A stretch of DNA of 64,000 nt from Allolobophora icterica (taxonomy: Eukaryota; Annelida; Clitellata; Crassiclitellata; Lumbricidae). The notes under the pieces were generated by a model. The model ran no database searches. It saw nothing but the letters and a program-made list of their open reading frames with translations, and had not been told where the DNA came from. Where the stretch lies: positions 39,375,286 to 39,439,285 of the forward strand of contig OY744613.1 of NCBI GenBank assembly GCA_963556255.1, read 5' to 3'. Position 1 is the first letter of the stretch; each line of letters begins with the position of its first letter. This document shows positions 2,462 to 37,990 of this stretch, in pieces. The position numbers and the translations under genes were made by a program.

Positions 2462-2917
2462 AGTAGTACAAACGGGGGCCCGCTGGCACATTTTGATTGA
2501 TTGATTGACTAATTGATTGATTGATTGATAAACAGTGCAGATGCGCATCACAGGTGCAAATGCTTCGTTCAGGAGCTTCAGGAGCTTCATCAGCAGGAGC
2601 AGGAGCTTCAGCTTCAGCAGGAGCTTCAGCAGCTGCAGCCGCTTAAGCTGCATTAGCAGCTTCAGATTTTATTGAATACATACATGTATACATACATGTA
2701 TACATACATGTATACACACACACACGGTGTGTGTTTAACGGGTCAAAGTTATCCGGTGCGTTTGTAATGACTGAATGAATGAACGGACGGTTGGGATGAA
2801 CGACTTTACGAGCTTCCTTTAATTAGCAACTGTTCATGCAACAGGGAGTAATGCTCTGGTGTCTGTGCCAGAGTCATCCGGTGACGTGTGCTTGTGCTCT
2901 GTGTGCGTGTCTGTGTG
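2462..2917 (+). repeat. Element 1 left terminal inverted repeat
   Basis: This 456-bp arm is the near-perfect reverse complement of 20491-20944. It begins agtagtacaaacgggg and contains a tgat-repeat block, a block of short gcttcagga-type repeats, three copies of a tacatgta/tacatgtata palindrome, and a (ca)n/(tg)n palindrome. The small open frame across it comes from the short repeats and is not taken as a gene. Confidence 0.95.
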
Positions 2918-2948
2918 AACTTATGATCACTTATTATAATGCCCCGAT

Positions 2949-4040: not shown

Positions 4041-4139
4041 TTTTAGTATATATATAAAATATATATACAATGTATATATATTTTATTTATTTATATCAGA
4101 ACAAATCGTCTAGTGAGCTCATGAATAACCTACCACGAT

Positions 4140-4844: not shown

Positions 4845-4845
4845 T

Positions 4846-4847
<2 letters not shown>

Positions 4848-4892
<45 letters not shown>
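4848..4892. repeat. (AT)n run upstream of fiber gene
   Basis: About 45 bases of alternating AT between the fiber start (minus strand) and the protease stop. It may double as a TATA-like promoter region, as AT-rich TATATA blocks precede most gene starts in this element. Confidence 0.7.
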
Positions 4893-5335
4893 AAACAAAC
4901 CGTTTATAACTTCTTGAAAATTCGCGGCATCGTCCATCATTTTCAACACATACAAGCACAGATGACCGCAAAACACTTCGTTATCGGGCTGTATTCGTTC
5001 GCTGTTATAATAAACTGGACAGCGTAAATATTTCAGTAGCTCGGAAGGTGGAGGGAGACCATAGCCATCGAAATATTTCGCCGAAATTTCGCCTTTCTTC
5101 TTGATCCAACACACCCAATGAATCCCGCTCCCACTAGATTTATCTAGGTTAAGAATGCCGCTTTCGTTAGTAGGCCTACTCGGTCTCTCGGGCAACTCGT
5201 CTCGTAGGAGACGCCTCTAAAGTTTGTGATATTTAGTTTCTTCTTAGCGGCGTCTATCAGTTGTATATTCGACAAAGGAACATTCGGTAACACGACTCCG
5301 CAAACGTCGATTTCTGTAACACTTCTAAAACTCAT
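4890..5335 (-). pseudogene. Adenain-type maturation protease, frameshifted
   Basis: Adenovirus-type cysteine protease that would mature capsid proteins. The N-terminal part (5335 down to about 5210) ends ITNFRGV. The C-terminal part in another frame contains SGSGIHWVCW (catalytic His), YFDGYGLPPP (Asp region) and CGHLCLYVLK (nucleophilic Cys). All three active-site regions are present, but the two halves are in different frames, joined near 5205-5210 by what looks like a one-base indel. The element 2 gene is also broken but by a stop codon. It sits between fiber and polymerase. If the frameshift is not a sequencing error, the element cannot mature its own capsids. Confidence 0.85.
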
Positions 5336-5342
5336 TTTATAA

Positions 5343-8300
5343 TCAACGAATAGATTCTTTATGTGCGCAGCGTAACGAGTAATGTCCGTACGCTAATGTA
5401 TGAATACCGTCTTCCATTATTACTCGTTTGTCATCATCCGCGGATAATGCAACTTTATTTACCTGTTCGGTATAAATATCGTGATGATACGATCTAAAAA
5501 CGTTCATTTTTCTTAGTCGTTCTCTCTTGGTAAACAGACAGTTTTTGTAATCATCGTGAGTTATCGTTTTCTTCACGACATTTTGCTTAATGCCTTTACA
5601 CTTCTTATGATCTTCGCCATCCATTCTATACGAGTACAACTTGGCCCTTAAACCTACGAACTCGGAAATCTGTTTTCCTGCTGATTCGTCTTTGAACATA
5701 CCGATAACTTTCTTGTTCATTCCGCTTCTTAAACCCGATGGGTGATCTTCTGGGTAATCACTCGTATCGAATCGAACCGCAACGTCTTCGGCGATATCCT
5801 CGTAAAAATCTTCTGTTTGTATTTCATATGCCAATGAATCTGTATCGGTGAATAACAATTTAGCTCTATCGCCGTATTTTTGTCGTATAAAATTGTAATG
5901 AAAGTCGTACATCAAAGTTTTACTTAAGTCTAATATACACATGCCTAGGTATATCGGTTTATTATAAAACAACTTCGTCCTTTTCATGTGAACGGCGATT
6001 AGATTCTCGTCGAAAATCGTCAGGCGGTCATAATTCGTTTTTGCAGCTAACTTAATAGCTTCCTTCTCGTGACATACCGATTTTATGTCTACATGATTTT
6101 CGATCCTTTCAAGAGTTTTTCCAAAGACGCTATTGTTCATCAATTTGAAAAAGTCTTTCTCAAAGTTATTAGTGGCACTCGTTCTCAAGTTTGTGTTTAG
6201 GTCTACATAATATTTCAACCAAGGGCTTTCTTCGAATAGTATCCCTCTATGAATTTTCGCGATTTTCAACCCGAGACTTTCGTACAACTTCAAATTTTCG
6301 TAATGTACCACGTACTTCTTTTTATCGTTCAAGTTCGGAATTAGTTTTGGTATACTAGATGTAAATTCCGACGAGATGCTCTCGGGAGCCAGAGGATAGT
6401 CGTTGTGGAGATTGTGGATATCTTGAGGATAGTCTAAATCGACTTCCAATATACACGATCCCGTTACATTCCAATTATTTAGCTCGTCTTCGCTCATCCA
6501 TTTAAATCCGCGAGTCGGTAAAGGTTTGCTCATCGCCCAACCGTATAAATTATTAGCGTCTAGATAAGTTATATATGCCGAAGGCTCGCTGCTATCGAAT
6601 TTATCCGCCGTCATATACTTATTGTTGGCTTTCCCATAACGATTCGAAATTGTGCTGATTCCTCCTCTTATTCCTTGCTTAATCATCAGAATCATATCGT
6701 AATCGCTCAACAACTCCAACTTTATACCGGTCAACTTCAAAGCAGCATCCCAGGCCAGTCCCGGAGAAGTGTAATACCATGCGGGATCTAGCCGATAATT
6801 CTTCATGCATACGTCTCTAAAGTTTTCGAAAACATCGGCTAAGAGTAGAACATCCGAAACATTGTACAGGTCGTGGTATTCTCTAAACGTTTTACATCCG
6901 AATGCATTCCATACATTTTTGGCGTGATCGTAATCTTCGTCGCTAATATCTGAGTCGTTCAGCCTCGAATAGAATGCGGACTTGAGAGGTAGTTCGGTCT
7001 CGTTAAATCTATCGATGGAAGCAACGTAATCGTACGGGTAAATTCCTTTTTTAAGTAAAAGATCGAGCTGTTTCCCAGAATATAATGCGCCAAGATTTTT
7101 ACATTGTTCTTTCGTCAGATTCTTCGATAAAGCGTCAAGACTCGATGCCATGAATCTATAACTGTCGATGAATCGCAATTCACGTTTAACGTTAATTTCT
7201 TTCCCTTCTTTGTTTAGAAACTTATCGACGATCACTTCTCTGCTAAACGATATGTACTTCTCTTCGTTATTAGGAATGCATTTAATTTTCTCATCGTGAT
7301 CACCTCGCAATTTTTTTACGAACAGATGGCTATCGTATCCGGACAGATTATGAAATACTACTGGAAAGAACCTCGGAACTTTATAGTCTAGATTGCAACC
7401 ATTATGAGCGGCCCCTCTAAAAATACCGCTCAAATGACAGTGGTCTCTAACCCGATCTGTACCCAACGTCCCTCCACAGATATGACATAAAGTAGTTTCC
7501 TTAAACTTTTTTCGGTCATCTGGAGTAAATATCATCTTCTTCGGAAATTTAAACTGATTGTATATTCGTTTTATAGTCTCTTCGAGACTTTCTACGAATT
7601 TTTGACCTATATCGTCGTCTTCGCTTTCGGCCGTGTACGTTACAGGATCTTGTTGATATAATATATCGTCGAAGCATTTTACGTAATAACAAAACGAGCT
7701 AGGCGTGTGTTTTTGGTATTTATCGGTGTAAGACACGCGAGGATCTGGCTGGCAAGTGGCTATAGGTTTGATGAAAGATTCGAAATCTGCATAAACGATA
7801 AAGGGAACTCTCATCGACCTATTATAATTTTTAAAACTTAACGTACTTCCCGGTTCTGGGACTTCTATTTTTTGAGCGGCGTTTTGCAAACAGTACTCGG
7901 AATGTTTATTAAACGCTTCTATTTTTGTATAACCGTTTAAACATCTTCTACAATAGTGCATTGAAGTATGGGATTTTTCTGTACGTGAAGCCATCAATCT
8001 GTTGAAATTCTTTATCCAACAATAATGTTTCTTATCTCCGTCGGAAATAAGCAATAGTTCAACGATAGAAACTTCATCGTCTCGTTGATTCGACACATAA
8101 ATTGGGAATACTATCTTATTTTCATAACCGAATACGTCAACGCTGATATTATTATTTCTTTCAAACTTGCTTATTATATTAGCATCTGCAGCAACCGGAA
8201 ATTCGATACCGCTCCAATCGAGTTTCTGGGATTGATTGATTAGTTCTTTCGTAATTCTGTCGAGATTTTTGCCCGTTGGATTTAACGCTCTAGTAATGCA

Positions 8301-9113
8301 CCACTTGAAACATTGCTCGTCATTATTCTTCATGTTGATAATAGCCTTTTTGCTAGATAGTTCTGTAGGCAACGGAATGTAAGAACTGCCTTTCAGTGGT
8401 TTATAAACAGCAGTATTGACATCTAACTTTACAACATTCACGAATCTCCAATTACTTCCCCGCATCTGGAAACTGGCCATAGTCTCTGGGATCTTATTGA
8501 TCGCATTATCGTATATTTCGTTAATATCGGTAGCATCTAAAATAACTTCAGTTTTCGAGACGAATGGAACATTCGCGGATTCTTCTTCTCCAGATTTCAT
8601 ATCAACGCGCTCCATGGTACATGTAAGAACGAGTTGAACCTTGACCTGACGATTTCTTGACAACAGACTAAAAACCTGCGGTCTAACGGCGTTAAGAAAA
8701 GACACGGCATCGATTCCAGAAGAACCATCGATAGTGTATTGTTTAGTGAATCCTTTAATAGCCGATGCAGTCTTTCGAATTTCGAACTTCTTTGTATTGA
8801 TTTTAGCAAAGAGACTCTTTATTTTCGACTTAAACGATTCCAATCTTTCGTTCACAGGTTTCTTTATTTTAGGAGGTATGTAACTAATTAACCAATCCGC
8901 AAAAGAATTAATATTCGACCTAACCTTAGTTTTCAACTCGCTGAGAACTTTATTTGGCTTGGAAACGAACTTGGTCGGAGTAAGAATTGGCGCTCGAATA
9001 TCGGGAACTGGAGAGTCGAGCAAGTTTTTATTTTTGCTCATAGCAGCAATCAGATCCGCTTTTCGCAGTTTCCAATATCCGACCATGCCGCTCCGTTTTG
9101 CCATGACTCTCAA
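5343..9113 (-). CDS. Protein-primed DNA polymerase B
   Basis: A 1256-aa (1252 if MAKRSG is the start) family B polymerase of the Polinton type, which would replicate the element's linear DNA by protein priming. An N-terminal SAP/Rho-N-like patch (YWKLRKADLIAAM, about 13-25) is followed by a C2HC zinc motif (388-408). Exo I is YADFES (441-446). A zinc/HNH-like insert follows (CHICGG, then RVRDHCH and AAHNGCNL, 543-574), then Exo II (NLSGYD, 589) and Exo III (YNVSD, 750). Polymerase motif A is YLDANNLYGW (D852), motif B NNSVFGKT (993-1000), motif C FTDTDS (D1090, D1092), and KLY lies near 1167. All catalytic residues are intact over the full length. A TATATA block lies about 60 bp upstream of MAKRSG. 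Confidence 0.95.
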   Translation of the reverse strand: MRVMAKRSGMVGYWKLRKADLIAAMSKNKNLLDSPVPDIRAPILTPTKFVSKPNKVLSELKTKVRSNINSFADWLISYIPPKIKKPVNERLESFKSKIKSLFAKINTKKFEIRKTASAIKGFTKQYTIDGSSGIDAVSFLNAVRPQVFSLLSRNRQVKVQLVLTCTMERVDMKSGEEESANVPFVSKTEVILDATDINEIYDNAINKIPETMASFQMRGSNWRFVNVVKLDVNTAVYKPLKGSSYIPLPTELSSKKAIINMKNNDEQCFKWCITRALNPTGKNLDRITKELINQSQKLDWSGIEFPVAADANIISKFERNNNISVDVFGYENKIVFPIYVSNQRDDEVSIVELLLISDGDKKHYCWIKNFNRLMASRTEKSHTSMHYCRRCLNGYTKIEAFNKHSEYCLQNAAQKIEVPEPGSTLSFKNYNRSMRVPFIVYADFESFIKPIATCQPDPRVSYTDKYQKHTPSSFCYYVKCFDDILYQQDPVTYTAESEDDDIGQKFVESLEETIKRIYNQFKFPKKMIFTPDDRKKFKETTLCHICGGTLGTDRVRDHCHLSGIFRGAAHNGCNLDYKVPRFFPVVFHNLSGYDSHLFVKKLRGDHDEKIKCIPNNEEKYISFSREVIVDKFLNKEGKEINVKRELRFIDSYRFMASSLDALSKNLTKEQCKNLGALYSGKQLDLLLKKGIYPYDYVASIDRFNETELPLKSAFYSRLNDSDISDEDYDHAKNVWNAFGCKTFREYHDLYNVSDVLLLADVFENFRDVCMKNYRLDPAWYYTSPGLAWDAALKLTGIKLELLSDYDMILMIKQGIRGGISTISNRYGKANNKYMTADKFDSSEPSAYITYLDANNLYGWAMSKPLPTRGFKWMSEDELNNWNVTGSCILEVDLDYPQDIHNLHNDYPLAPESISSEFTSSIPKLIPNLNDKKKYVVHYENLKLYESLGLKIAKIHRGILFEESPWLKYYVDLNTNLRTSATNNFEKDFFKLMNNSVFGKTLERIENHVDIKSVCHEKEAIKLAAKTNYDRLTIFDENLIAVHMKRTKLFYNKPIYLGMCILDLSKTLMYDFHYNFIRQKYGDRAKLLFTDTDSLAYEIQTEDFYEDIAEDVAVRFDTSDYPEDHPSGLRSGMNKKVIGMFKDESAGKQISEFVGLRAKLYSYRMDGEDHKKCKGIKQNVVKKTITHDDYKNCLFTKRERLRKMNVFRSYHHDIYTEQVNKVALSADDDKRVIMEDGIHTLAYGHYSLRCAHKESIR

Positions 9114-9247
9114 TTCTTTTACAGTTTCAACTTGTAGTCCATTCCTTTATATATACATATATATATATTCATTTCTTTAAGTGTTGTTTAAGAAAAACAC
9201 AAATATTTATTTATGTTCATGAAAATAAATTATTTTTTCCCAAAATC

Positions 9248-9790
9248 TCACAGCTCATTCACAACGGAATCGATAGTTTTGTCGTTAATGCTATCGTACA
9301 CCTTAATTTTGTATCTATTTCTCCATACTTTTCCATTATACCATTGTATTATTGGTGCGTTTTGCCCGTGCGCCTTAGCTGCTTTGTACATCGACGGATA
9401 CACGACAACATCACCGGTTTCTAGGTCTAAGATTTCTACTTTTCTCGGCTGATTTCTGATATACCTCGTTCTATCATACGCGCCTTCCTGGTAGTTTCTT
9501 TTAAGTATTCGTTCTTTCCGATATTCTTTCCAGTATCCTTTCTGATATTCTATCTGATATGCTTTCCGATATTCTTTCTGCTGCTCTTTCTGCAGTTCTT
9601 GCCTTTGTCGTCTCTCTAGTTTCTCTAGTTTCTCTTTTTCTGAGACATCGCGAGCAAGAATCTCCATTGCGCTCAATAGAGCTATAAGCTCGGGCTTGTT
9701 GAGATGAGCACAACCCTTAACGTTGTGCTGGACCAGTAAGTTTCTCAGCTCTGGAAGTTTCATCTTCTTATTACTAATATAAGTAAACAT
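9248..9790 (-). CDS. SAP-like plus NUMOD1-like DNA-binding protein
   Basis: 180 aa, probably starting at MKLPEL (9763). Residues 10-45 resemble a SAP/Rho-N helical DNA-binding motif (LPELRNLLVQHNVKG, LNKPELIALL), matching the small N-terminal patch of the adjacent polymerase. Residues 50-110 are highly charged coiled coil rich in Glu/Gln/Arg/Tyr. Residues about 117-163 (ETGDVVVYPSMYKAAKAHG, IIQWYNGKVWRNRYKI) look like a NUMOD1-type DNA-binding module known from homing endonucleases. No nuclease active site is visible. Position next to the polymerase suggests a role in replication or terminal-protein function, which is inference. No homologue is seen in element 2. Confidence 0.6.
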   Translation of the reverse strand: MFTYISNKKMKLPELRNLLVQHNVKGCAHLNKPELIALLSAMEILARDVSEKEKLEKLERRQRQELQKEQQKEYRKAYQIEYQKGYWKEYRKERILKRNYQEGAYDRTRYIRNQPRKVEILDLETGDVVVYPSMYKAAKAHGQNAPIIQWYNGKVWRNRYKIKVYDSINDKTIDSVVNEL

Positions 9791-9870
9791 CTCTTTATGT
9801 ATGTTTAAGAAAAAAAGAAATTTTATTCATAGCCTTCACCCTTAGCATTTAGCATTTAAATCGCGGCGAT

Positions 9871-11172
9871 TTAAGACGAGCTTCTACCGTAGACGACGTT
9901 TAGCTTCTGTCCGTCCGATTGAAACTCCAGCAACTTGTCCGAAATTACGATAGCATAAGCTTCGGTTTCGGCCGGCACTGCCGTATTAAATATAGCTTTG
10001 ATCTGAATATCGACGACAGACGATTTTAACCGTTCAGATTGTTTGCTAACGTCGAAAATCATTAGCGGATATAGTTCTTTATAATCACTCGGTGTTATAT
10101 TACTCTGCGTTATCAACTGATCCATTCCGTAGAATTTTTCGCTAAACGTTGCCGCGGCTCGGTACGCTCTCGAGAATTGTTGATTAGGAAACGATAGGTT
10201 GTAGTCTACAGCCGGGTATCTTTCCTGATTCATCATTACGTACATGTTCTTAAGATCGCAATGGTCGAAGATCGACGGATTATGTTCTTGATTACCGTCA
10301 CGACTTGTCTGAAATCCTACGATTATATACCTCGGTTTTTCCGGAGATGTCTTGACACTAAGTCTCCAACTGAAAGTAGTCGACTGAGGAACAGTTATGG
10401 TGTCGCATTGACGAGCGCGATAGGCGACGGCCAACGATGCTTTCGATTCGATCGTTTTATATAACTGCATTTTTTCCATATCGGATGGAATAACGTGAGG
10501 CATAAACCACGATATCTTTTCTATTGCAACTTTTCCAGCCGCTGCATCGTGACCTCTATAAATAGCATCGTCGTCGGCTTTACGCACTAACGTTAGCGTA
10601 TGTTTCAAACCGTAAACAATCTTGTCGTAATCATCGCAAAAACCGAAGATATGCTTTAATGCAACTATAAAGCTGAACGTTCCCTTAGCAGTTGGTTTTC
10701 GAATAAGATACTGTTGTCTGACCGCAAACCCCGTGTTATCGGCGAGAACGGCCGTTGCACAACTGTCTTTATACCACAGCTGATTTAAACCTTGTGCCAG
10801 TTGAAAATCGTTTGGGTATTTTAGCAATCCAAGCATCGTGGTAGCTTGACCCGGGTGAAATAACGTTTCTATTTCTTGATTCGATAGAGAATACGATATT
10901 TGGCTAAATAGATGCATTAGCCCGTTATTCGTAACAGCCACTGCATCGGCATTAACGTATGCGGTGTTATCCGCTTTAGTCAGTCTTCCTTCGAATAGCA
11001 AATAGGATTCTGAAGGGTGGCTGAATAAATCTTGGAGTTCAATGTTTATACGAATCTCACCCGTTGTGTTTAGATTCGTTCTCGCAGTAGGTTCGTACTC
11101 GTGAAATTCGTATCGTTCGATACTCTCGTCCGTCAAAGGTTGTTCCGTGAATCTTAGTATATCTGATTGCAT
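9871..11172 (-). CDS. Major capsid protein, double jelly roll (hexon-like)
   Basis: 433 aa, collinear along its length with the 431-aa protein at 40731-42026 of element 2. Shared blocks include PSESYLLFEGRL/PSKSYLLVEGRL, HLFSQISY/YMFSQIRY, PGQATTMLGLLKY, FGFCDDY, TTFSWRLSVK and SDKLLEFQSDGQKLNVVYG. Length, all-beta look and position match the Polinton/adintovirus hexon (formerly PY). It would form the pseudo-hexameric capsomers. The start is chosen after an AT-rich leader with ATATATTA. No breaks are seen. Confidence 0.9.
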   Translation of the reverse strand: MQSDILRFTEQPLTDESIERYEFHEYEPTARTNLNTTGEIRINIELQDLFSHPSESYLLFEGRLTKADNTAYVNADAVAVTNNGLMHLFSQISYSLSNQEIETLFHPGQATTMLGLLKYPNDFQLAQGLNQLWYKDSCATAVLADNTGFAVRQQYLIRKPTAKGTFSFIVALKHIFGFCDDYDKIVYGLKHTLTLVRKADDDAIYRGHDAAAGKVAIEKISWFMPHVIPSDMEKMQLYKTIESKASLAVAYRARQCDTITVPQSTTFSWRLSVKTSPEKPRYIIVGFQTSRDGNQEHNPSIFDHCDLKNMYVMMNQERYPAVDYNLSFPNQQFSRAYRAAATFSEKFYGMDQLITQSNITPSDYKELYPLMIFDVSKQSERLKSSVVDIQIKAIFNTAVPAETEAYAIVISDKLLEFQSDGQKLNVVYGRSSS

Positions 11173-11219
11173 TTTTTTATTAATAATATATGATTTTATT
11201 TTATCTAAATATAAATAAC

Positions 11220-11753
11220 CTATGCAACCTTCAATCCAGCTCCGTTTAAACGTCTAACGAGATCTTGAATTCTAATAGCGCTCTTTGCATTGGAATTCAT
11301 ACCGTGCCCCATCATTAAATTATTTATATTTGTACTCTTCGAACGCGTTCCGTCGTTAATAAGTCTAGTTAGCACGTCTTTACTTTCTTGAGTTAGCAAG
11401 TCCTTACCTTCGTTCAGCTGCGGTTGGAGCGCTGAAAGCGCTGGAAGCGCATGTGAACCGAGTTCCGTAGCAGCTGACCTTGTAGTAGGTAAATTTTTGG
11501 GACTCATAATTTTAGCAATCGCTTTATCGACTAATCGTTTCCCGGCGTCAGCAGCGACAGTTTTACCAACATCCAGCGCTTTCCGCCCGATGTCTATAGC
11601 CGCATCTTTTCCTACGCTGAGAGCGGTTGACGCTATTTGTTTAGCCGCATTCGACGTAAATAGTTTCTTGAAAAAACCCGCAACAATATCGAATATTCCC
11701 GCCCCTCCGATAACGTATTGTTTCTTATACCTTCTTTTAGTAACTACTAACAT
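11220..11753 (-). CDS. Small basic, Gly/Ala-rich virion-like protein
   Basis: 177 aa. Begins MLVVTKRRYKKQYVIGG and then has an amphipathic/hydrophobic stretch (GIFDIVAGFFKKLF, about 18-32) and a long Ala-rich helical region to residue 85. Element 2 has a counterpart in the same position (42135-42593) with the same plan: KKRRRVVGGG, FDWIPKIAGFLG, then an Ala/Val helix. A basic leader plus amphipathic helix next to the hexon resembles adenovirus membrane-lytic or cement proteins such as pVI, but that is analogy only. Four bases separate it from the gene upstream. Confidence 0.65.
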   Translation of the reverse strand: MLVVTKRRYKKQYVIGGAGIFDIVAGFFKKLFTSNAAKQIASTALSVGKDAAIDIGRKALDVGKTVAADAGKRLVDKAIAKIMSPKNLPTTRSAATELGSHALPALSALQPQLNEGKDLLTQESKDVLTRLINDGTRSKSTNINNLMMGHGMNSNAKSAIRIQDLVRRLNGAGLKVA

Positions 11754-11756
11754 TTT

Positions 11757-12689
11757 TTATATTAATAGCATTATATTTTTATATTCATTTTTATTTATCG
11801 CTCCTTGTCTTAGTAACTCGTCGCATATACCAACTATCTCAGTTCTCACACCCGTATTCCCCGCCTCGAAGCTGGCCATTCGCAGAGATAACATTTCTAT
11901 TAATGCATTAGGATCTTGAGGAATAACGATACGCTGTAGGCCTATTCCTTTACCTTGCGCCTTTGCCATCATCGAGTCCCATATCGGTTTAATAATATTT
12001 TTATATTTTAAGCTCTTAGAGGATTTTGGTTTACTTGGATTTTTCGGCTGCCTCATAGCATTCGTTATCTTCAGAATCTCGGCATATTCTTCCCGATCGT
12101 TTGCATTGAAAATCGACTCGTCCGGTTTGGCCATCGTTAATAATTCCCAAAGTCCTGGAGTTCCTTCGTATATCTTAGGCCTATCGCCTACCGTCACGTT
12201 ATTGCCGTCGATCGATATAGGACTGTCGCCTATATAAAATTGGCCGTCTTTTGAGTTTATACCGAACGTTGTGTCTACCGTCTTTTTATCGGACGCGTAT
12301 TGTTGCAGGTACTTCACCGCAATATCTCCTAGTTCTAAGGTTTTTATATCTTCTAGGCCTACCGGGTCTTCTCCGTAAGCCTGTATCGAAGGGTATTGAG
12401 GAAACTGAATGGCTTTTAACGATGTCGAAATAGAAGCGGGAAGCGCCTTTAAAGCGTTAGCTGTCTCTGCAGAGTTTTCTTTTATAGTCGATAACAAAGC
12501 CTTTTGTTCTTTTGAAATTGTTGATTGCGAGTCGACTATTGGTTTGTACAATCTCGTTAATTCTCGTTGTAGTCCGATGTCTCCTAATCTCTCGGATAAA
12601 AAGTTTTGTCGAATATTCTTCTTCGATTTCAGAAACTCCTCAACGATAAAATCTCTTTTTGCGGGATCGGTTATCTTTAGAAACGACAT
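11757..12689 (-). CDS. Conserved Polinton structural-region protein
   Basis: 310 aa, function unknown. The C-terminus (about 250-305) has DPNALIEMLSLRMAS, AGNTGVRTEIVGICDELL and GAINKNEY, closely matching the end of the 367-aa protein at 43438-44541 in element 2. The N-terminus of both starts with a helical, basic stretch with DFIVEEFLKSKKNIRQNFL here. The middle is poorly conserved. The neighbourhood (virion proteins on both sides, same place in both elements) suggests an internal virion or scaffold protein, which is inference. The start follows TATATAAATAAAATATA. Confidence 0.65.
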   Translation of the reverse strand: MSFLKITDPAKRDFIVEEFLKSKKNIRQNFLSERLGDIGLQRELTRLYKPIVDSQSTISKEQKALLSTIKENSAETANALKALPASISTSLKAIQFPQYPSIQAYGEDPVGLEDIKTLELGDIAVKYLQQYASDKKTVDTTFGINSKDGQFYIGDSPISIDGNNVTVGDRPKIYEGTPGLWELLTMAKPDESIFNANDREEYAEILKITNAMRQPKNPSKPKSSKSLKYKNIIKPIWDSMMAKAQGKGIGLQRIVIPQDPNALIEMLSLRMASFEAGNTGVRTEIVGICDELLRQGAINKNEYKNIMLLI

Positions 12690-12773
12690 TATATTTTATT
12701 TATATAAGCTTATAGCTATATTTTTTAAACGTAAATTCGAACGTAAATTCCAACGTAATTTCGAACGTTTAAT

Positions 12774-13310
12774 TTACGTTCCCGTTAAAACGTTCTCGTT
12801 AAACGTTAATTTTTCTGTGCTAACTTTGGTTTTATTTTTAATTTTTTCTTTCATATCGTTGAATTTCACAAACTCGCTTACTATTAGCGAATATTCAATG
12901 TCTGAAATATTGTCGTCCACAAGAGCTTTTGAAATGAGGCTACTGATAGTGTTTAGTTTTGCTTCCGCTAACGTTTTGATCTTTTCGTGCTTTGTCAATT
13001 TCAACGCAAGCTTCTTACTAACTTGTCCTCCGATAATAATTAACAATCCTACACCTACTGCCGTACCTGTTGCTATCGCTATGGCCGGAGTTGCAATTAC
13101 AGTAGCCAGAGCTGCCAGTCCTGAGCTGCTGAGCCCCATCACAGTTACTATCAGAGCGTTGTCGATAATGCTAATCATTCTTATGTTCCTACGATACTTT
13201 GTACTTAAGGCGGTCCTTTTATCGCGTTCTTGTTCGATTTCTTTTTGAATTTCGTTAATTTTTTTAAAACGATACGATTGCGCTGAATTTTCCATTTGTT
13301 TATATTCCAT
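12774..13310 (-). CDS. Predicted membrane protein with central hydrophobic hairpin
   Basis: 178 aa (or start at MENSAQ, 13295). Plan: N-terminal charged helix (about 10-45), a long hydrophobic core (IIDNALIVTVMGLSSSG through VGLLIIIGG, about 48-95) that could form two TM helices, then a charged helical tail with LAEAKLNTISSLISKALVD and EYSLIVSE. The element 2 and 3 proteins at 36818-37423 and 63082-63687 share the plan and the C-terminal words (LAESKLNTVHDHISKALED, EEYKLILGE). A role in membrane interaction or entry/exit is a guess. In element 1 it lies in the structural block; in element 2 it is at the left end. Confidence 0.65.
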   Translation of the reverse strand: MEYKQMENSAQSYRFKKINEIQKEIEQERDKRTALSTKYRRNIRMISIIDNALIVTVMGLSSSGLAALATVIATPAIAIATGTAVGVGLLIIIGGQVSKKLALKLTKHEKIKTLAEAKLNTISSLISKALVDDNISDIEYSLIVSEFVKFNDMKEKIKNKTKVSTEKLTFNENVLTGT

Positions 13311-13340
13311 TATTATTATTATTATTAAGATTTTTTAAAT

Positions 13341-13742
13341 TTAAACGTGGTAATTAATGTAGCATAGCGAATCTTTTTCGTTAATGATAACTACAGAATC
13401 GGAATTGTTTTGAATAGTAATAACAATGTCTTCTACATCTTCACAAATGGTTGAATCTTGCAAGCTACATTTCTTTTCTTTAATCGCCTGTCTAAGCGAC
13501 ACTAGACAGACTCCTCTAGGTAGTCGAACACCAAATCCTAGCTCTTGCGAGACCGACGATCTGGGTTGAATTGTGATCGCTCGTTGTGCGAAAATCTCCC
13601 AACGCTGTGAGCCCGGTTGTCTTATAGCCCGATGCGTTACTTCTTTAGGCAACCAAAATACTGATTCTGGTCGAGTTCTAACTCTGCTCGGAGAATTGCG
13701 TTTTGTTATAAACTTGTGTATTGGCATACCGTATCGCGACAT
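13341..13742 (-). CDS. dUTPase-fold-like small protein
   Basis: 133 aa. Residues about 55-130 (ITIQPRSSVSQELGFGVRL, then CEDVEDIVITIQNNSDSVV and INEKDSLCYI) resemble the trimeric dUTPase beta fold in motif order, with N-terminal 'PRGVCLVSLRQ' in the place of the PxG..RSG region. The catalytic Ser/Tyr/Asp set of true dUTPases is not clearly present, so it may be a structural relative only. An ATATAT run directly precedes the ATG. It sits between the membrane protein and the core-like protein and has no counterpart that I can see in element 2. Confidence 0.45.
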   Translation of the reverse strand: MSRYGMPIHKFITKRNSPSRVRTRPESVFWLPKEVTHRAIRQPGSQRWEIFAQRAITIQPRSSVSQELGFGVRLPRGVCLVSLRQAIKEKKCSLQDSTICEDVEDIVITIQNNSDSVVIINEKDSLCYINYHV

Positions 13743-13774
13743 TATATATATTATATATATATTTATATATAGGG
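13743..13774 (-). promoter_or_regulatory. TATATA-rich leader, promoter candidate
   Basis: A run of TATATA units directly abuts the start codon at 13742. Similar but shorter TATA(T/A)A plus A-run leaders lie within about 5-40 bases of most starts in elements 1 and 2, so it may be a viral promoter. Confidence 0.4.
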
Positions 13775-13787
13775 CCTATTATAACCT

Positions 13788-14411
13788 TTACAGAATCATA
13801 CCAAGTAGGGGTCCAAGGATTGGAATACTAGAAAGTACTTTTGAAATGGGATTGTCGTTTCCAAGAATCAATCCTGAACCATTGACAAATCCAGAACCTC
13901 TGCGCATGTACAGTCCTTCTCCTACACCGTCTAATCCAGATCCTGACCATGGTTTCAGGTAAAGACCTGCTGCGTGCGGAACCATCTTGTAGCTTCTTCC
14001 TCCTTTCTTTATGTATAAAGCACCTCCATTAACACCCGATCCCATCATTTTGCTAACACCTGTACTCGCTAATCCGCTTAAAGCTCCAGTTGCAAGACTT
14101 GGCAGAACCCTAGAAAGAAGAAATTTTCCAGCTGTAGCTAGAAGTGGTAATAACGCTGGAAGAAAACCGCCTTCGACTTTCATATTATGGTCTATTTGCG
14201 TTTTACTCATTTTGAGCGTAGTACCAGTTCCATTCTGATATGCTTTCGCCATTTTATTAATTTGTGCTCGTGTAAGAGCTAAAACGTGTTCACCGGATAG
14301 ATCTCCGTGAGTTAGTCTTATACTCGTTCCTGTCCCTGCCTCAACTGCGCGTTTAATTTTGTCTTTTTGTCCATCCGAAACATTAACTTTTGTATTGGTA
14401 TATCGACTCAT
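13788..14411 (-). CDS. Core/pX-like protein with GSGLYL motifs
   Basis: About 207 aa from MSRYTNT (14411), chosen because it follows a TATATATAAA leader. Residues 10-75 contain paired motifs (DGQKDKIKRAVEAGTG, SIRLTHGDLSGEHVLALTRAQ) matching element 2's EGQKQTLAKAARDGTG and IRLTHGQLRG. Then come GGFLPALLPLL and a Gly/Ala hydrophobic stretch, and a Gly-rich tail with short repeats (AGLYLKPW, GEGLYMRRGSG, NGSGLIL). It resembles adenovirus-type core/pX-like or pVI-like proteins reported for adintoviruses. DNA condensation or membrane activity is possible; the exact role is not shown by the sequence. Confidence 0.6.
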   Translation of the reverse strand: MSRYTNTKVNVSDGQKDKIKRAVEAGTGTSIRLTHGDLSGEHVLALTRAQINKMAKAYQNGTGTTLKMSKTQIDHNMKVEGGFLPALLPLLATAGKFLLSRVLPSLATGALSGLASTGVSKMMGSGVNGGALYIKKGGRSYKMVPHAAGLYLKPWSGSGLDGVGEGLYMRRGSGFVNGSGLILGNDNPISKVLSSIPILGPLLGMIL

Positions 14412-14461
14412 TTTATATATATAATTGAAATTAAAAACTTTAATACCACGATAATTAATTC

Positions 14462-15253
14462 TCACACTTCTCTAATTTGAAACCTGATCGACAACTCCTC
14501 TCCTCGAAGGTTGATTAGTTTTCCATTTTGATCTGTAAGTTTTGTTTCCATAGCCGAAATCGTAAATAGCGTAATAGGAAGATATACTAAATTAACGGGC
14601 ACTTCTATAATCTTGTATCCGGGGCCTACATTCGGGAAAAAGGAATATATAATGTTTTCCGTTGTTCCGTTAGAGTACGAAGATCCTATTACGTCGCTGG
14701 TTAATCTCAAACTATTTACGTTCATTATATTTACTATGTTCTCGGATTCGTTATATCCTTCTGAATACACTCGGCTATTAAATCCTAAAACAGTTCTAAT
14801 CGAGTTCTCGATTGTCATATTAACCTGATAGTTAGCACCGATATCTAACACCGACTTCAAAGTATTGTTGTTCGCTTGTAACGTTATACAGTACGCATCT
14901 CCCGTTTCGTCATAATGTCCTGATTGTTTCATGATTCTCTGAATGTGTTCGTTTATATCTACGATTTCGTAACTTCCTTCTGGGATTTCTATAGTAAACC
15001 ACGTTTTACCATTATCCGGCGAATACACAAACTTGTTGTTTCCAGAATATATATTCGGGAAGGAATTATAAGTCTCAAGATTAACAAGACACATTTCATA
15101 CTTTTTGTTTTTGTCAAGTTGAATCAGAGGATTAAATTTTGTTCGAATTTGCGTGCTCCTTTCGCTCACCAAAATGCTGAATGACTCTTTAGGCTCCGTG
15201 TTACGAGCGATCTTTTCTGTGTTCAGAACTATCTTTTCCAACCGCGCTTCCAT
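14462..15253 (-). CDS. Minor capsid (penton-like) protein
   Basis: 263 aa. A short N-terminal coiled coil (LEKIVLNTEKIARNTE) leads into a beta-rich body. It aligns with the 267-aa protein at 42616-43419 through YEMCLVNLETYNSFPNI/FELALVNLETYNSIPNI, NNKFVYS..NG(K/Q)TW, DGSYEI-type strands, LGFN, YSFFPNVGPGYKIIE and LTDQNGKLINLRGE. The size and place upstream of the ATPase match the single-jelly-roll penton of Polintons (formerly PX). It would sit at the capsid vertices and hold the fiber. It is intact. Confidence 0.85.
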   Translation of the reverse strand: MEARLEKIVLNTEKIARNTEPKESFSILVSERSTQIRTKFNPLIQLDKNKKYEMCLVNLETYNSFPNIYSGNNKFVYSPDNGKTWFTIEIPEGSYEIVDINEHIQRIMKQSGHYDETGDAYCITLQANNNTLKSVLDIGANYQVNMTIENSIRTVLGFNSRVYSEGYNESENIVNIMNVNSLRLTSDVIGSSYSNGTTENIIYSFFPNVGPGYKIIEVPVNLVYLPITLFTISAMETKLTDQNGKLINLRGEELSIRFQIREV

Positions 15254-15287
15254 TACATATATAATATATATCTTATGAAGATTATTT

Positions 15288-16067
15288 TTATGCTGAAGGC
15301 ATATAAAATGTATCTAACCCACTTCTATACTTGCCGTTGTTTTTTTTACTGGTTAAATCTATCACTACAAATCCGTGCGGACGCTCCCACGCAGTTTTGC
15401 ACAGTTTTACAAATTCGTCTTTAGGCATATCATCTACGCCTACGTGATCGTTGTATATATTATTAATATTTTTAAGGTCTTGACTAAATAAACAGATAAA
15501 GTTTGCATTCTCTCTGATGGTCTGTCTAGGCAGTTTGAAGTAGTTTTGTGCGAGGTAAAATGAGTCAACATTACTATGTCTTCCTCTGATATAATAAGCT
15601 TCGCATTTGTTTTGTTTTTCTAATTGTAAATCGTCGAAAATCATCAGGTTCTGCTTGGCACTCAAATCTCTCGGATCGGGCACTTCTTCCGAAGTTTCAA
15701 AGAATCGACAGTTCATATCAGATTTTTTAACTATACTTTTAGCCATTTCCTCAACAACTGATATTGGCGATACATTCAGCCTGGCTATCTCGTCTTGACA
15801 ACCAAACAAATTGACGATTGCTTCTTTAGGCAATTTTTCTTCGAATGCTTTTTTCAGTATTTTATATTCTGGTTGAAAGAGAGATCTTCCAAAAACCTGT
15901 AAGTTATCATAATCTAACCATCCTGGATTCAAAAGTAAATTTAATAATAGCGTAGTCTTACCGCATCCAGACTTCCCAACGATCAGACCCCTTATACTTC
16001 TAGGTAATAATGGGTTATTAAATCTTTTCGATGTCTCATCGTTCCAAGATAAATCTTTAACTTCCAT
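15288..16067 (-). CDS. FtsK/HerA-type genome-packaging ATPase
   Basis: 259 aa. The Walker A motif GKSGCGKTT is at 31-39 and Walker B LMIFDDLQLEKQ at 141-152. A following FYLAQNYFKLPRQTIRENAN motif matches element 2's FYLTQNYFRIPKQAIRDNAN. This is the A32-like ATPase that pumps viral DNA into capsids. The gene is divergent from the PLA2 gene with only 35 bp between the start codons, which contains TATATTAAA, so the two probably share a bidirectional promoter region. No breaks are seen. Confidence 0.92.
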   Translation of the reverse strand: MEVKDLSWNDETSKRFNNPLLPRSIRGLIVGKSGCGKTTLLLNLLLNPGWLDYDNLQVFGRSLFQPEYKILKKAFEEKLPKEAIVNLFGCQDEIARLNVSPISVVEEMAKSIVKKSDMNCRFFETSEEVPDPRDLSAKQNLMIFDDLQLEKQNKCEAYYIRGRHSNVDSFYLAQNYFKLPRQTIRENANFICLFSQDLKNINNIYNDHVGVDDMPKDEFVKLCKTAWERPHGFVVIDLTSKKNNGKYRSGLDTFYMPSA

Positions 16068-16102
16068 TTCTTTTTTAATTATAAAAATAGTTTTATATTA
16101 AA

Positions 16103-16735
16103 ATGTATATGGAACAGATGTATTGCGTAAAGTGCAAGAGAGAAACCGAAATGACAGATATTCAAAATTTCATCAGTAAAAATAAAAGACCTATGATTAG
16201 AGCCGTATGTTCCGACTGCGGAAAAACTAAAACTCGATTTCTTTCCACTGCCAAAAAAGGAGGCGATCTAGTTGGGTCTTTAAATTCAGCTACGAAAAAT
16301 CTAAAACTTCCCTGGGCGAAATTCCCTGGAGAATTGCATCTTCCAGGACATTCGTTTACGGGCCCTGGAACAAGATTAGATTTAAGATTGAATCCTGACG
16401 CCTCCCCTAAAGACTGGAGTCAGCCTGTGGACAGAATCGACCAAGCAGCTTATCGTCATGATTTAGCTTATGACCAGTATTCGGATACCGCTGCCAGAAA
16501 TGCAGCCGACAGAGTAATGGTAAATGAATTAAATAATATAAATAATCCTACATTACGTGAGCGCGTCGAAAGAGCGATAATTAAACCTATTTTGATGACA
16601 AAAGCCAATCTTGGTTTAGGTTTAGGTACTTCCGATTCAAAGCCAGCTGTTAAACCGTCTCAAAAATGGACGGATGAACTCGCCGAACAATTGCATAAAC
16701 CGGTAATACGACATTTTACAAAAAGGAAGGTTTAG
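16103..16735 (+). CDS. Zinc-ribbon / parvovirus-like phospholipase A2 protein
   Basis: 210 aa. A four-Cys zinc ribbon comes first (C8xxC11 and C36xxC39). A PLA2 domain follows, with a calcium-loop-like SFTGPGTRLD (84-93) and the catalytic helix QAAYRHDLAYDQ (H119, D120, Y123), as in parvovirus VP1u PLA2. Such domains break endosomal membranes; secretion by a signal peptide is not predicted. Through residue about 166 (LGLGLG) it matches the element 2 protein. The rest (KWTDELAEQLHKP, FTKRKV) instead looks like the N-terminus of a Polinton integrase. The stop TAG at 16733 is followed in the same frame by the integrase, so this is a PLA2-integrase fusion frame broken by one stop. Confidence 0.85.
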   Translation: MYMEQMYCVKCKRETEMTDIQNFISKNKRPMIRAVCSDCGKTKTRFLSTAKKGGDLVGSLNSATKNLKLPWAKFPGELHLPGHSFTGPGTRLDLRLNPDASPKDWSQPVDRIDQAAYRHDLAYDQYSDTAARNAADRVMVNELNNINNPTLRERVERAIIKPILMTKANLGLGLGTSDSKPAVKPSQKWTDELAEQLHKPVIRHFTKRKV

Positions 16736-17587
16736 GTCAATGGTATCGATCAAATTTGGGCTGCAGATCTTATAGACATGCAGTCTTTCACGAAATATAA
16801 CGATAACGTTAAATATTTATTAAGCGTTATCGATATATTTTCAAAATACGGGTGGCTTGTCCCGATTAAAGATAAGAGCGGAAAATCTGTGTTCGATGCT
16901 TTCACCAAAATACTTTCTAGTAGCGGACGGAAACCCGAGAAACTGTGGGTCGATAAAGGTAAGGAGTTTTACAATAAAAACGTGAAATCAATTGGAATCC
17001 AGTTGTATTCTACTGAGAATGAAGAAAAATCATCCGTTATCGAACGATGGAATAGAACCATGAAGGAGAAAATGTTCAAATATTTCACAGCTAATTCGAC
17101 TAGGAAATATATCGATGTTTTAGAAAATATGGTTTCTCGTTATAACAACACTAGACATTCTTCCATAAAAATGACTCCAATAAAAGCGAGTATAAAGATA
17201 AATGAGACTATTGTATGGAAAAATTTATATGGCGGTTTACACCCAAAACCACCTGATAAACCGAAATTTTCAATAGGTGATAAGGTCCGAATTTCTAAGA
17301 AAAAGACGTTCTTCGAAAAGGGTTATACCCCTAGATGGACGGAAGAGATCTTTACTGTGACAAAAATTCAATACACAGATCCTCCGACCTATAAGATAAC
17401 AGATTACAACGGAGAGGAAATTCAAGGCACATTTTACGAACAGGAATTACAGAAAACGACTCAGGAAATTTATAGGATCGAAAAAATCATAAAAACACGT
17501 GGAAACAAATCTTTTGTCAAATGGGTGGGATATCCACAAAATTTTAATTCATGGGTTGATAATCAAGCATTGATAAATTTACATTAG
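16736..17587 (+). CDS. Retroviral-type integrase with chromodomain (5' part in preceding ORF)
   Basis: The frame continues directly from the TAG at 16733-16735; the first Met is at 16778. Catalytic triad: D in IWAADLIDM (just upstream of that Met), D in LWVDKGKEF and E in SSVIERWNRTM. An SH3-like region (FSIGDKVRIS) and a C-terminal chromodomain (YRIEKIIKTRG, FVKWVGYP, NSWVDN) follow. Starting at 16778 would omit the first catalytic Asp, so an active enzyme would need readthrough of the TAG or initiation upstream. It would insert the linear element into chromosomes and leave the 6-bp duplication. The chromodomain may guide insertion to marked chromatin (family knowledge). Confidence 0.85.
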   Translation, partial: VNGIDQIWAADLIDMQSFTKYNDNVKYLLSVIDIFSKYGWLVPIKDKSGKSVFDAFTKILSSSGRKPEKLWVDKGKEFYNKNVKSIGIQLYSTENEEKSSVIERWNRTMKEKMFKYFTANSTRKYIDVLENMVSRYNNTRHSSIKMTPIKASIKINETIVWKNLYGGLHPKPPDKPKFSIGDKVRISKKKTFFEKGYTPRWTEEIFTVTKIQYTDPPTYKITDYNGEEIQGTFYEQELQKTTQEIYRIEKIIKTRGNKSFVKWVGYPQNFNSWVDNQALINLH

Positions 17588-17854
17588 AATCTCCATTCGA
17601 AACAGTGAGAAATCTCCATTTGCAACCTAATGTTACTACTTACTTATCACACCGGCCCAGCATCCTACTTGTGTTACTACTTATTACACCGTTCCAGAAG
17701 CTTAATGTTACTACTACTTGTATTACAAATTGTGGGAAAGCAATTCTTAAGAACAAGCCATATAATCTAGCAGCTCAATTGGCTGTTAAGATGGGTTCCA
17801 CTGGTATGTTAAATACTTATGCTAAATCTACTGTTCCTTGACTCGAATATTGTC

Positions 17855-17897
17855 TATGTATGTATGTATGTATGTATGTATGTATGTATGTATGTAT
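17855..17897. repeat. (TGTA)n microsatellite
   Basis: Ten or so perfect tgta units just after the integrase region. Open frames here are repeat artefacts. Confidence 0.9.
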
Positions 17898-17974
17898 ATT
17901 GTATACGTAAGTATGAAATAAGTATGAACAGTACTGCATTTATGTATATTGTGTATGTATATGTAAGTATGTGT

Positions 17975-18062
17975 GGATGGATGGATGGATGGATGGATGG
18001 ATGGATGGATGGATGGATGGATGGATGGATGGATGGATGGATGGATGGATGGATGGATGGAT
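17975..18062. repeat. (GGAT)n microsatellite
   Basis: About 22 tandem ggat units. It gives an artificial WMDG-repeat frame on plus and an HPSI-repeat frame on minus. Neither is a gene. Confidence 0.95.
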
Positions 18063-18152
18063 ATACGATTAAACAGGAAGATGAATTGAATGGACATTGG
18101 AACTCTGTATCTAGAAAGTTACATGGTTTCAATAAATGGGAATCTGTTAAAG

Positions 18153-19643
18153 AGGTCATTCCATGTGAGATCAACCAGACCCTCCAACCTTCAACCTTAG
18201 ATTTGGCTGAAACTTTTTGCATCTGTTTGTCCACCATTTTTACATCTGTTTGTCCACCACCTGTTCAAGCTCTACAACACTAAGTTAAAAGCATTAACTG
18301 TTGTCCCACATGCGCATAGGCCTACTTGCAGCCCAGGATATGCTCCAGTTTACCTGACAGACCAACTTTGAAGACCCTTATCACAATGAAGACATAGAGT
18401 AATAATGGAATAAGATTTGTTACATACAGAGTGAACTATATGCAGATAACAGAAATTTAAAATTTTTGCAATTGCTTTTATTGTCTTCAATGCTACCATG
18501 CCATGAATATTACAGATTTAAATTGACAACTGCGTTATGTGGTCACTTTTCACCAATATTAGTGGGAAACTATTTGTTTCAATTCAGAATGATTTGCAGA
18601 ATCAGAAAGTACACAGAACGTTGTACAAAATCACAACATTTTGCAGGGCTATGTGGATCTGTTCCAGAGATACTGGCCTCTGAATATGTCACCAAGTTCA
18701 AAATGTGTCGCGAGTGCTTCAAACCACCCCTCCATTACCCTCAGCCATACAATGCAGATACATGGTGATAGGCTTATGACAATTTCTATATGATGTAGGC
18801 CTACCAACGTATCAAACTACCAAAATAGCTAAATTACAGCCAAATCTGAGATAGGTCACATACAGCCCCTCTGTGATTTCACATGGATTGGCCCTTCTGA
18901 GACCTCGAAAAATAGCTAATATTCAGCAGAGCATCACTGCTGATTGCTTCTGATTACCAACACCAAATTTATATATCCAGACAGCTTATGGCATGCACTT
19001 TTCAGAAATATGAAGCACAGATAAATTCCAGTTCTCCAATTTCCCAATATCAGCTGGTGAAGTTGACCCCCATTCATCAGTTTGACCAAGATTAGCATGT
19101 GAGTATGAATTCATTTGCAAATTAACACCACAGTAAAGTACATCCGGTAGGAACCCATTACTTGTTATTTCAAAATATGAAGAGATTAAAATGTTGTTAC
19201 TACTGCTTTTCCTCATATTGGTCTGGCAAATTCAAGAAAATACAGTTTGCAATTTCTGAGACTGCATATTGGCAGCTGTATTGTAAAGCCTGTACTCAAG
19301 ACACAGTCATTATAACAGGTCCAGTGGGTCGCCAACAACTTTCTGAATACAGCAGTGAAAACCTCAAGCCTCTATCTGCTCTACTTCTTGACTTATTTCA
19401 TGTTGAATATGGCTTCAGAGAACATTTCGCGAAATCGGATCCAAATTTCCGACTATTCCACCTCACTTTTAGATGGTATATATCTCGGTCAAATATTTGA
19501 ATATTTGAATATTTGAATATTTGAATAAAATTTGGCATTTGTGCCAATATGGTGGCCAAACAGAAGAAAATTTTTTCAGCCATATCTAAAGTTGAAGGTG
19601 TGAAAATGTTTTAAAAACTGGTTGATTTCACACGGAATGACCT
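18153..19643. mobile_element. Inverted-repeat-bounded insert inside element 1
   Basis: A 24-bp motif beginning aggtcattccatgtga at 18153-18176 has its inverted partner at 19620-19643, with about two mismatches. The inside is AT-rich, lacks a supported coding region and holds several short repeats (tttgtccacca twice). This looks like a non-autonomous DNA transposon that entered the right arm of element 1. No convincing target-site duplication could be read. Confidence 0.55.
19490..19535. repeat. Tandem aatatttg decamer-like repeat
   Basis: Five or so units of atatttga(at) in a row, inside the preceding insert. Confidence 0.85.
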
Positions 19644-20490
19644 AAACCTAAACCTGTGGCTTGACAGATTGGACTTGCATCACATTATTAAGAAACGTCG
19701 CATGATGTTCTATTGGCGAATAGTTCGTTCAACATTTAACCTTCTTCAAAATATTTTATGGTGTTACCTTTATGATTCCGAACTCCTTGTCATTTCGAAT
19801 ATCAAATATTGTCTCACAACTGCCATTTACACCACAGTAGTTTTCTTAGTTTGTGCGTTTGGAATTGTGTTTAATTTTCGTAGTTTGTGCTTTTCAGGTT
19901 ATGTTTATTTTTCATAGTTTGTGCTTCTTAAAATTCGGTTTATGCAGCGTGTATGTTTTACTACTGTGTAATTTGACTTGTTCTTTTTGCCTTCGAGCGT
20001 AATAAAGTGCTCATCGGCTATTTCACAACGGCTGTATGTATCACAACAATCTATGTATAATGCAACATTTGCTCGGACTCAACTTCCGCTCCAGACAAAA
20101 TGCCTCCGGGGCTTTGTTCCGGCCCAGATTAAAAATTCTGAACGCTAACTTCCTGTGAACAAAATATTTTGCGGACAAAAGCAAACATATCCAGACAGAC
20201 ACAGACTGACTGCCATTTAGCGTGGTTTGCATAAAGAAACAGTGGCGTCCACTGGCGAAAGCCTTGGGAACAGTTTGGACACGCTAGATAAACGATATAT
20301 AATCTGACTCTAACAATGGTCTTGGTGGACCAACGGTGAAGCAGGATGCCTTCGAACCGAATGGTCTCCGGTTCAAACCCTCTTAACGCCGGTATTTTTT
20401 TAATTACTTTATTTTTTGGTCGGAGAACGCGCAGGATCTTCAATAGAGAGGCGGAACACAGGAGCAATGAGAAACAAGGTGGAACTCGAA
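19644..20490. other. Right arm of element 1 without recognised genes
   Basis: No viral gene is recognised between the inserted repeat and the right TIR. A weak LINE-like 3' end (aataaagtgctcatc near 20000) is possible. The longest open frame (19669-19917) has no motif that I can name. Confidence 0.4.
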
Positions 20491-20944
20491 CACACAGACA
20501 CGCACACAGAGCACAAGCACACGTCACCGGATGACTCTGGCACAGACACCAGAGCATTACTCCCTGTTGCATGAACAGTTGCTAATTAAAGGAAGCTCGT
20601 AAAGTCGTTCATCCCAACCGTCCGTTCATTCATTCAGTCATTACAAACGCACCGGATAACTTTGACCCGTTAAACACACACCGTGTGTGTGTATACATGT
20701 ATGTATACATGTATGTATACATGTATGTATTCAATAAAATCTGAAGCTGCTAATGCAGCTTAAGCGGCTGCAGCTGCTGAAGCTCCTGCTGAAGCTGAAG
20801 CTCCTGCTCCTGCTGATGAAGCTCCTGAAGCTCCTGAACGAAGCATTTGCACCTGTGATGCGCATCTGCACTGTTTATCAATCAATCAATCAATTAGTCA
20901 ATCAATCAATCAAAATGTGCCAGCGGGCCCCCGTTTGTACTACA
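20491..20944 (-). repeat. Element 1 right terminal inverted repeat
   Basis: Near-perfect reverse complement of 2462-2917. The outermost bases read gtactaca on plus. The inner edge diverges at the cacacagaca block. The flanking duplication agtggt follows at 20945. Confidence 0.95.
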
Positions 20945-20950
20945 AGTGGT
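20945..20950. repeat. Target-site duplication of element 1, right copy
   Basis: agtggt, identical to 2456-2461. Confidence 0.85.
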
Positions 20951-36674: not shown

Positions 36675-36718
36675 CGTTTGCTGACGGCCGAGACCCTCCC
36701 ACGAGGCCGGCCCAAACC
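36675..36718 (+). repeat. Inner inverted repeat of element 2, left
   Basis: 44 bp (cgtttgctgacggccgaga...) matching the reverse complement of 51160-51203 with two mismatches. Outside this the two ends diverge, so the left terminal repeat is probably truncated. Confidence 0.8.
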
Positions 36719-36817
36719 ATTGGCGTGTGCCAGTAAAAATTATAGCCCACTAATCGTACGGCGGTGGTGCGCTAGGAATTACAGACTCACTACTCCAACC
36801 GCCTACGACGAAAATTT

Positions 36818-37423: not shown

Positions 37424-37429
37424 ACTTTT

Positions 37430-37975: not shown

Positions 37976-37990
37976 TATTAAGTCTTATGT

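Follow-up and report, generated by a model that had tools for sequence, protein, structure and literature searches.

A predicted parvovirus-type phospholipase A2 with a zinc ribbon, beside the integrase in two distant Polintons of Allolobophora icterica

The window analysed here, a stretch of 64,000 nucleotides from Allolobophora icterica (assembly GCA_963556255.1, contig OY744613.1, positions 39,375,286 to 39,439,285), contains two Polintons, designated E1 and E2, each of which encodes a protein with an N-terminal zinc ribbon followed by a predicted parvovirus-type phospholipase A2 (PLA2) domain. In E1, the open reading frame (ORF) for this protein occupies 16103–16735 on the plus strand and encodes 210 amino acids. 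The DUF5679 zinc ribbon (residues 7–46, 16121–16240; C8xxC11 and C36xxC39) precedes the PLA2 domain (PF08398, residues 77–150, 16331–16552), in which the GPGT calcium-loop motif (residues 87–90, 16361–16372) is followed by the HDLAY catalytic motif (residues 119–123, 16457–16471). Both domains are well over their Pfam cut-offs (DUF5679, E = 4.7e-13, 49.5 bits, cut-off 27; PF08398, E = 1.3e-10, 41.8 bits, cut-off 23.9). The E2 gene (45307–45873, plus strand, 188 amino acids) has the same two domains (DUF5679, E = 6.7e-14, 52.2 bits, cut-off 27; PF08398, E = 1.5e-09, 38.4 bits, cut-off 23.9), with the motifs CxxC...CxxC, GPFT and HDVAY and with D143. A preliminary description, made from the letters of the sequence alone, had read this residue pattern as a zinc ribbon plus a parvovirus-type PLA2, and the Pfam matches bear it out in both elements. 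When the window was scanned in six frames for GPxT and HDxAY separated by 15–60 residues, only the E1 and E2 lipase sites matched.

The PLA2 signature of E1 is complete, comprising the GPGT loop, H119, D120, Y123 and the distal aspartate D136. In the AlphaFold model, helices 111–125 and 129–144 form the PLA2 helix pair and bear H119/D120/Y123 and D136, respectively; by the preliminary description, a predicted fold lacking this pair would have spoken against its reading. In a second look at solved structures (VIA), the best match of the E1 model was a true PLA2, and superposition on rice PLA2 covered model residues 77–175, with the calcium loop and both helices within this span. A Foldseek search of the PDB with the same model gave no match under E = 0.001. 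Among viral matches, an entomopoxvirus PLA2-like protein came first, followed by densovirus and parvovirus VP1; the entomopoxvirus protein (Q9YW13) is the best viral structural match of both lipase models (E = 1.3e-07 and 1.8e-06). The E1 ORF contains no cysteine beyond residue 39, unlike secreted PLA2 with its disulphide-forming cysteines. The parvovirus PLA2 domain is likewise not known to contain cysteines.

Database searches returned 209 matches for the E1 lipase protein and 75 for that of E2. Among relatives having the respective regions, the catalytic residues are unaltered in 185 of 192 and all four zinc-ribbon cysteines are kept in 140 of 142; few positions of the alignment vary as little as the catalytic H, D and Y and those of the calcium loop. 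The zinc ribbon–PLA2 proteins are strongly basic, with a mean net charge of +13 (n = 140), and source names indicate that the pair is already recognised in database annotation. Most of the listed E1 PLA2 relatives are separate from an integrase, 98 of 120 being 165–203 amino acids long. On the basis of its domains, kept residues and modelled fold, the E1 ORF most likely encodes a Ca2+-dependent parvovirus-type PLA2 with an N-terminal zinc ribbon.

The lipase of E1 is coupled to the integrase, a feature on which the preliminary description was silent. Judging from the layout of its relatives, the last 22 residues of the lipase ORF (16667–16732, plus strand) are the integrase N-terminal block (WTDELAEQLHKP...), which stands before the catalytic core in the single-ORF relatives P0203, P0247 and P0276 (P numbers denote database proteins). 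A single in-frame stop follows (16733–16735), after which the integrase resumes in the lipase frame (16736–17587, plus strand) with an rve core (1.4e-07, 32.1 bits, just short of the 32.6 cut-off) and a weak chromodomain; the first methionine of this integrase ORF is residue 15, past the first catalytic aspartate as placed here. One uninterrupted PLA2–integrase ORF is found neither in E1, which has the stop, nor in E2, where the two genes lie in separate frames, and is found in P0203, P0247 and the divergent locus L001. DUF5679, PF08398 and rve all score over cut-off in P0247 and in P0203, which stands for 18 member sequences; P0276 falls just short on rve and P0288 on PF08398, P0255 combines PF08398 with a weak rve, and P0309 and P0313 hold lipase remnants only. 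In P0176, an E2-type PLA2 is fused to an integrase whose N-terminus is of another kind, and L001 encodes PLA2 and integrase in a single ORF of 407 codons that lacks a zinc ribbon. PLA2 sequence is carried by 7 of the 120 integrase relatives listed out of 5,316, and the integrase block by 7 of the 196 PLA2-list proteins, query counted, counts that describe these lists only, as the length limits of the searches shut out many complete fusions. Furthermore, the listed PLA2 and integrase proteins for which a source-contig size is given (111 and 114) have 10 such sizes in common, against 2.3 at shifted sizes, which weakly suggests that the two genes are linked. As read from these sequences, intact lipase–integrase fusions exist and the E1 copy is interrupted.

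Two other ways of reading the E1 junction were set aside. A frameshift is not needed, both ORFs lying in one frame. The adenovirus-protease consensus has M, I or L four places before the cut; the conserved [FL]GxG at the PLA2/integrase junction (NLGLG in E1) seldom has such a residue there, and a protease site at this position was rejected.

In other relatives, PLA2 is connected to a PX-like core protein, again a link absent from the preliminary description. P0195 and P0196, 2 of the 75 E2-type matches, consist of PLA2 followed by a PX-like stretch; that of P0195 matches the PX proteins of E2 (3e-08), L001 (5e-07) and E1 (0.005), and that of P0196 matches E2 PX (6e-08). Neither protein has an Adeno_PX match in Pfam; the PX protein of L001 is over the Adeno_PX cut-off, and the E1 PX-like protein (13788–14471, minus strand) matches under it (0.0011). 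In addition, a C-terminal tail of the type GLILGPNSPFKxIPILGAIL is found in P0125, P0128, P0141 and P0147, and incompletely in P0133, and the E1 PX-like protein ends in a similar GLILG...IPILG tail (about 13791–13886). In shuffle tests run after the motif had been noticed, the E1 PX-like tail scored 53 against P0125 (shuffled mean 21, reached by 0 of 10,000 shuffles); the stand-alone zinc ribbon of L002 resembled the tail more weakly (score 39, 30 of 10,000 shuffles), and the end of P0001 was unlike it (2,442 of 10,000). Canonical adenovirus-protease sites are scarce in the PLA2-list proteins, being present in 14 of 196 against 46.1 on shuffling, and in 3 against 15.2 of the 66 thinned PLA2 representatives under 260 amino acids, whereas integrases are not depleted (18 of 120 against 19.5). 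Such a deficit is as expected of a lipase that matures beside an adenovirus-type protease.

E2 lies at approximately 36675–51203. Only a short terminal repeat delimits it, with 42 matches in 44 bp, and no target duplication was found, the flanks of the element being different; its core genes encode PolB, a double-jelly-roll (DJR) capsid protein, an A32-type ATPase and an rve integrase. The integrase ORF (45795–46940, plus strand; rve, 1.6e-09) is in a frame other than that of the lipase, and its first ATG (45873) shares one base with the lipase stop. E1 and E2 are 50% identical in the capsid protein, 41% in PolB, 29% in PLA2 and 23% in the integrase, and the lineages are distant, as the preliminary description had proposed. 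In both, the lipase gene starts beside a divergent ATPase gene and the integrase comes next on the same strand. Because the two-domain architecture and this position between ATPase and integrase are common to both elements, an ancient descent of the zinc ribbon–PLA2 pair is supported by the comparison. The preliminary description had gone further and claimed an ancient entry function; its statement on age is supported as regards the descent of the pair, and the entry function is part of the model set out below. ORFs with RVT_1 reverse-transcriptase domains flank E2 at 35398–36012 and 55332–57461 (plus strand).

E1 itself extends over 18,483 bp (2462–20944) and has the hallmarks of a Polinton, in agreement with the earlier assignment: terminal inverted repeats, a 6-bp target duplication, PolB, an rve integrase, a packaging ATPase and a DJR capsid protein. 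The duplication reads AGTGGT (2456–2461 and 20945–20950), and the left (2463–2917) and right (20491–20943, minus strand) repeats pair with 99.6% identity over 455 columns, with 0 mismatches and 2 gaps. The packaging ATPase (15288–16097, minus strand; Pox_A32, 2.4e-09) is the divergent neighbour of the lipase ORF; the DJR major capsid protein (9871–11253; PF21738, 2.3e-58) and PolB (5343–9146; 41% identical to E2 PolB, itself a DNA_pol_B_2 match) are also on the minus strand. An adenain-like protease piece was assigned by eye at 4890–5216 (minus strand) from its HW and CGHLCLY motifs, which we take to mark such a protease. The piece has no Pfam match and resembles an ORF of L001 (2121–2582) that is itself an under-cut-off Peptidase_C5 match; its frame is disrupted upstream, start and body of the gene lying in different frames in a three-frame view. 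With a stop between lipase and integrase and a broken protease frame, the E1 copy is probably decaying and, judged from the protease-like gene, probably not autonomous. Decay is also the simplest reading of the stop, since fused relatives are intact and the protease of the same element is disrupted.

Several other proteins were observed. Each element encodes a small protein in which an amphipathic segment comes after a GG-containing site (11220–11756 and 42135–42638, both minus strand); neither protein has a Pfam match over cut-off, the segment was seen without a control, and we presume a resemblance to adenovirus pVI. An ORF at 9248–9826 (minus strand), lying between the PolB and capsid genes of E1, has HeH/LEM and NUMOD1 matches, both under cut-off; none of the E2 ORFs compared corresponds to it. 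Fibre-like proteins with DGTN...ATKNYVD-type repeats were recognised by eye at 3513–4082 and 4140–4889 (minus strand), the two tandem copies of E1, at 37991–39865 (minus strand), and at 2365–4893 of L003; three have an under-cut-off F5/8-C match, and they are possibly receptor-binding fibres.

The loci outside the window came from scans of genome contigs (L001) and of viral contigs (L002 and L003, on one and the same contig); the other scans of viral contigs returned nothing. L001 is contig CALZFZ010000048.1, labelled as a Muriicola metagenome-assembled genome, with PLA2–integrase, protease-like, PX-like and PolB-like ORFs; this Polinton-like piece within a bacterial genome record is probably contamination. 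The L002/L003 contig encodes an A32-type ATPase (Pfam, 1.1e-10), and separate genes encode its DUF5679 (27.2 bits, cut-off 27) and its PLA2 (34.1 bits). We considered whether it represents a polinton-like virus that has a tyrosine recombinase and in which PLA2 adjoins a capsid gene, and dropped this gene position as evidence: the capsid-like ORF and PLA2 are separated by one small ORF, and Pfam names neither the capsid-like nor the recombinase-like ORF, both of which were read by eye.

Taken together, the domains, kept catalytic residues, predicted fold, gene position, fusions and common tail lead us to favour, as the somewhat more probable reading, a model in which the lipase rides in the Polinton particle, carried by its attachment partner, and serves membrane passage after uptake. 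The zinc ribbon–PLA2 protein would travel within the particle and, once the particle has been taken up, would cut host phospholipids, such that particle or genome could cross the membrane. Its carrier would be the partner attached to it: in the E1 lineage the integrase, next in the same frame, and in other lineages either a core protein of PX-like type or a short tail at the C-terminus, in common with a PX-like protein. The basic zinc-ribbon protein may additionally hold the genome. Enzyme activity, packaging, the entry role and the tail as a packaging signal are what we infer from these observations. More tentatively, PLA2 may be an exchangeable virion cargo across Polintons, attached to an integrase, a PX-like protein or a PX-type tail, so that in the E1 lineage the membrane-breaching and genome-inserting enzymes would enter as one polypeptide.

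Several observations weigh against this model. The tail is present in only 5 of the 315 database proteins fetched, all of them E2-type and one incomplete; E2's own PLA2 is without it, and the end of E2 PX gives no match to P0125 (1,184 of 10,000 shuffles). The deficit in protease sites may come from fixed glycine motifs, which shuffling ignores. At the level of fold and catalysis, a profile search of solved sequences returned nothing significant, chains titled only 'Capsid protein', presumably of adeno-associated virus, match the PLA2 segment at E = 0.48 and rank below two unrelated chains, and the calcium loop of E2 has F for the second glycine, as do 54 of 196 rows. Not every lineage couples its lipase to the integrase, as L002/L003 have separate genes for PLA2 and DUF5679, and no rve integrase was seen among the L002/L003 ORFs read, all of them past base 3,896 of the contig. 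Finally, membrane passage could be the task of the pVI-like protein that each element encodes, with PLA2 acting elsewhere.

An alternative is that the lipase acts in the producing cell, where it would stay unpackaged and remodel or break membranes during assembly or release. The lipase adjoins the integrase on the strand opposite the capsid genes in both window elements, and most listed relatives stand alone, as this explanation would have it; on the other hand, PLA2 is fused to a PX-like protein and has a tail in common with one, and the closest viral PLA2 folds include parvovirus particle proteins, so that we regard it as unlikely. The single-ORF fusions, which occur in at least two divergent lineages (the P0203 type and L001) besides the E2-type P0176, and the basic character of the proteins could instead mean that the zinc ribbon–PLA2 region serves the integrase chiefly as an N-terminal accessory module, binding DNA or a partner, and that lipase activity has become secondary or been lost. 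The strict retention of the catalytic H, D and Y and of the calcium loop is more than binding by itself would call for, and most listed copies are unfused; we consider this account decidedly improbable.

The stop in E1 might, by analogy with retroviral gag-pol, be a programmed control point that yields two products from one frame. The E1 integrase ORF has no methionine before the first catalytic aspartate, and P0002 ends at the same residue, by a stop or a contig end. Further close relatives (P0003, P0042, P0086, P0203 and P0276) are open across the site, however, and the disruption of the E1 protease frame fits decay, which leaves programming very unlikely. That the motifs arose by chance, or belong to a decayed host gene and not to a viral domain, has practically no probability in view of two Pfam domains far over cut-off in two elements and of the many database matches of both proteins.

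The lipase bears on the question whether animal Polintons travel as infectious particles. Strictly kept, and joined to a core-like virion protein or to the integrase according to lineage, it is not easily accounted for in a pure transposon. The particle model, which we prefer, predicts that the lipase is present in particles and that the common IPILG tail directs proteins there; a lipase–integrase fusion would be an unusual pairing, in one chain, of an entry-type enzyme with an integrase.

The idea of an entry role for a parvovirus-type PLA2 in Polintons is not new. According to the accessible part of a 2015 account, some Polintons encode lipases closest to parvovirus PLA2, and such viruses are likely to package their lipases in the particle, with a role in entry proposed (PMC4642659); a 2013 figure also marks PLA2 in Polintons (PMC3671162). 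The domain described there is the same as ours, and the accessible parts of these two papers do not mention the zinc ribbon, the integrase fusion or the common tail. In the open literature searched, DUF5679 was not found, nor did open papers yield the lipase–integrase fusion, the PX-like join or the common tail. The endosome lysis that the preliminary description ascribed to parvovirus PLA2 is a model disputed for human parvovirus B19, as the accessible part of a further report indicates (PMC11311400).

Several known systems resemble the E1 and E2 lipases in part. Like the PLA2 of the VP1 unique region of parvoviruses and densoviruses, the lipases have a GPG loop (E1), HDxxY and a downstream AD, and the E1 domain has a similar predicted fold and no cysteines. 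Unlike in parvovirus VP1, the window lipases are not N-terminal to a jelly-roll capsid protein and have a zinc ribbon in front; the E1 lipase is followed by the integrase block, and nothing follows that of E2. Entomopoxvirus Q9YW13, the best viral structural match, superposes with a root-mean-square deviation of 17 Å and is therefore only locally alike; it has 138 amino acids and no integrase. The PX-like stretch that PLA2 joins in P0195 and P0196 recalls the adenovirus core proteins pX/pVI, which are not known to carry PLA2 themselves. In Mavericks of Spodoptera frugiperda, a 'CAP' protein listed next to the integrase is described, in the accessible part of the source, as capsid-like with an N-terminal PLA2 (PMC5803895); it resembles our proteins in having PLA2 in a Maverick protein beside the integrase, and P0195 and P0196 suggest, by analogy with the published description, that proteins of this form may combine PLA2 with a PX-like partner.
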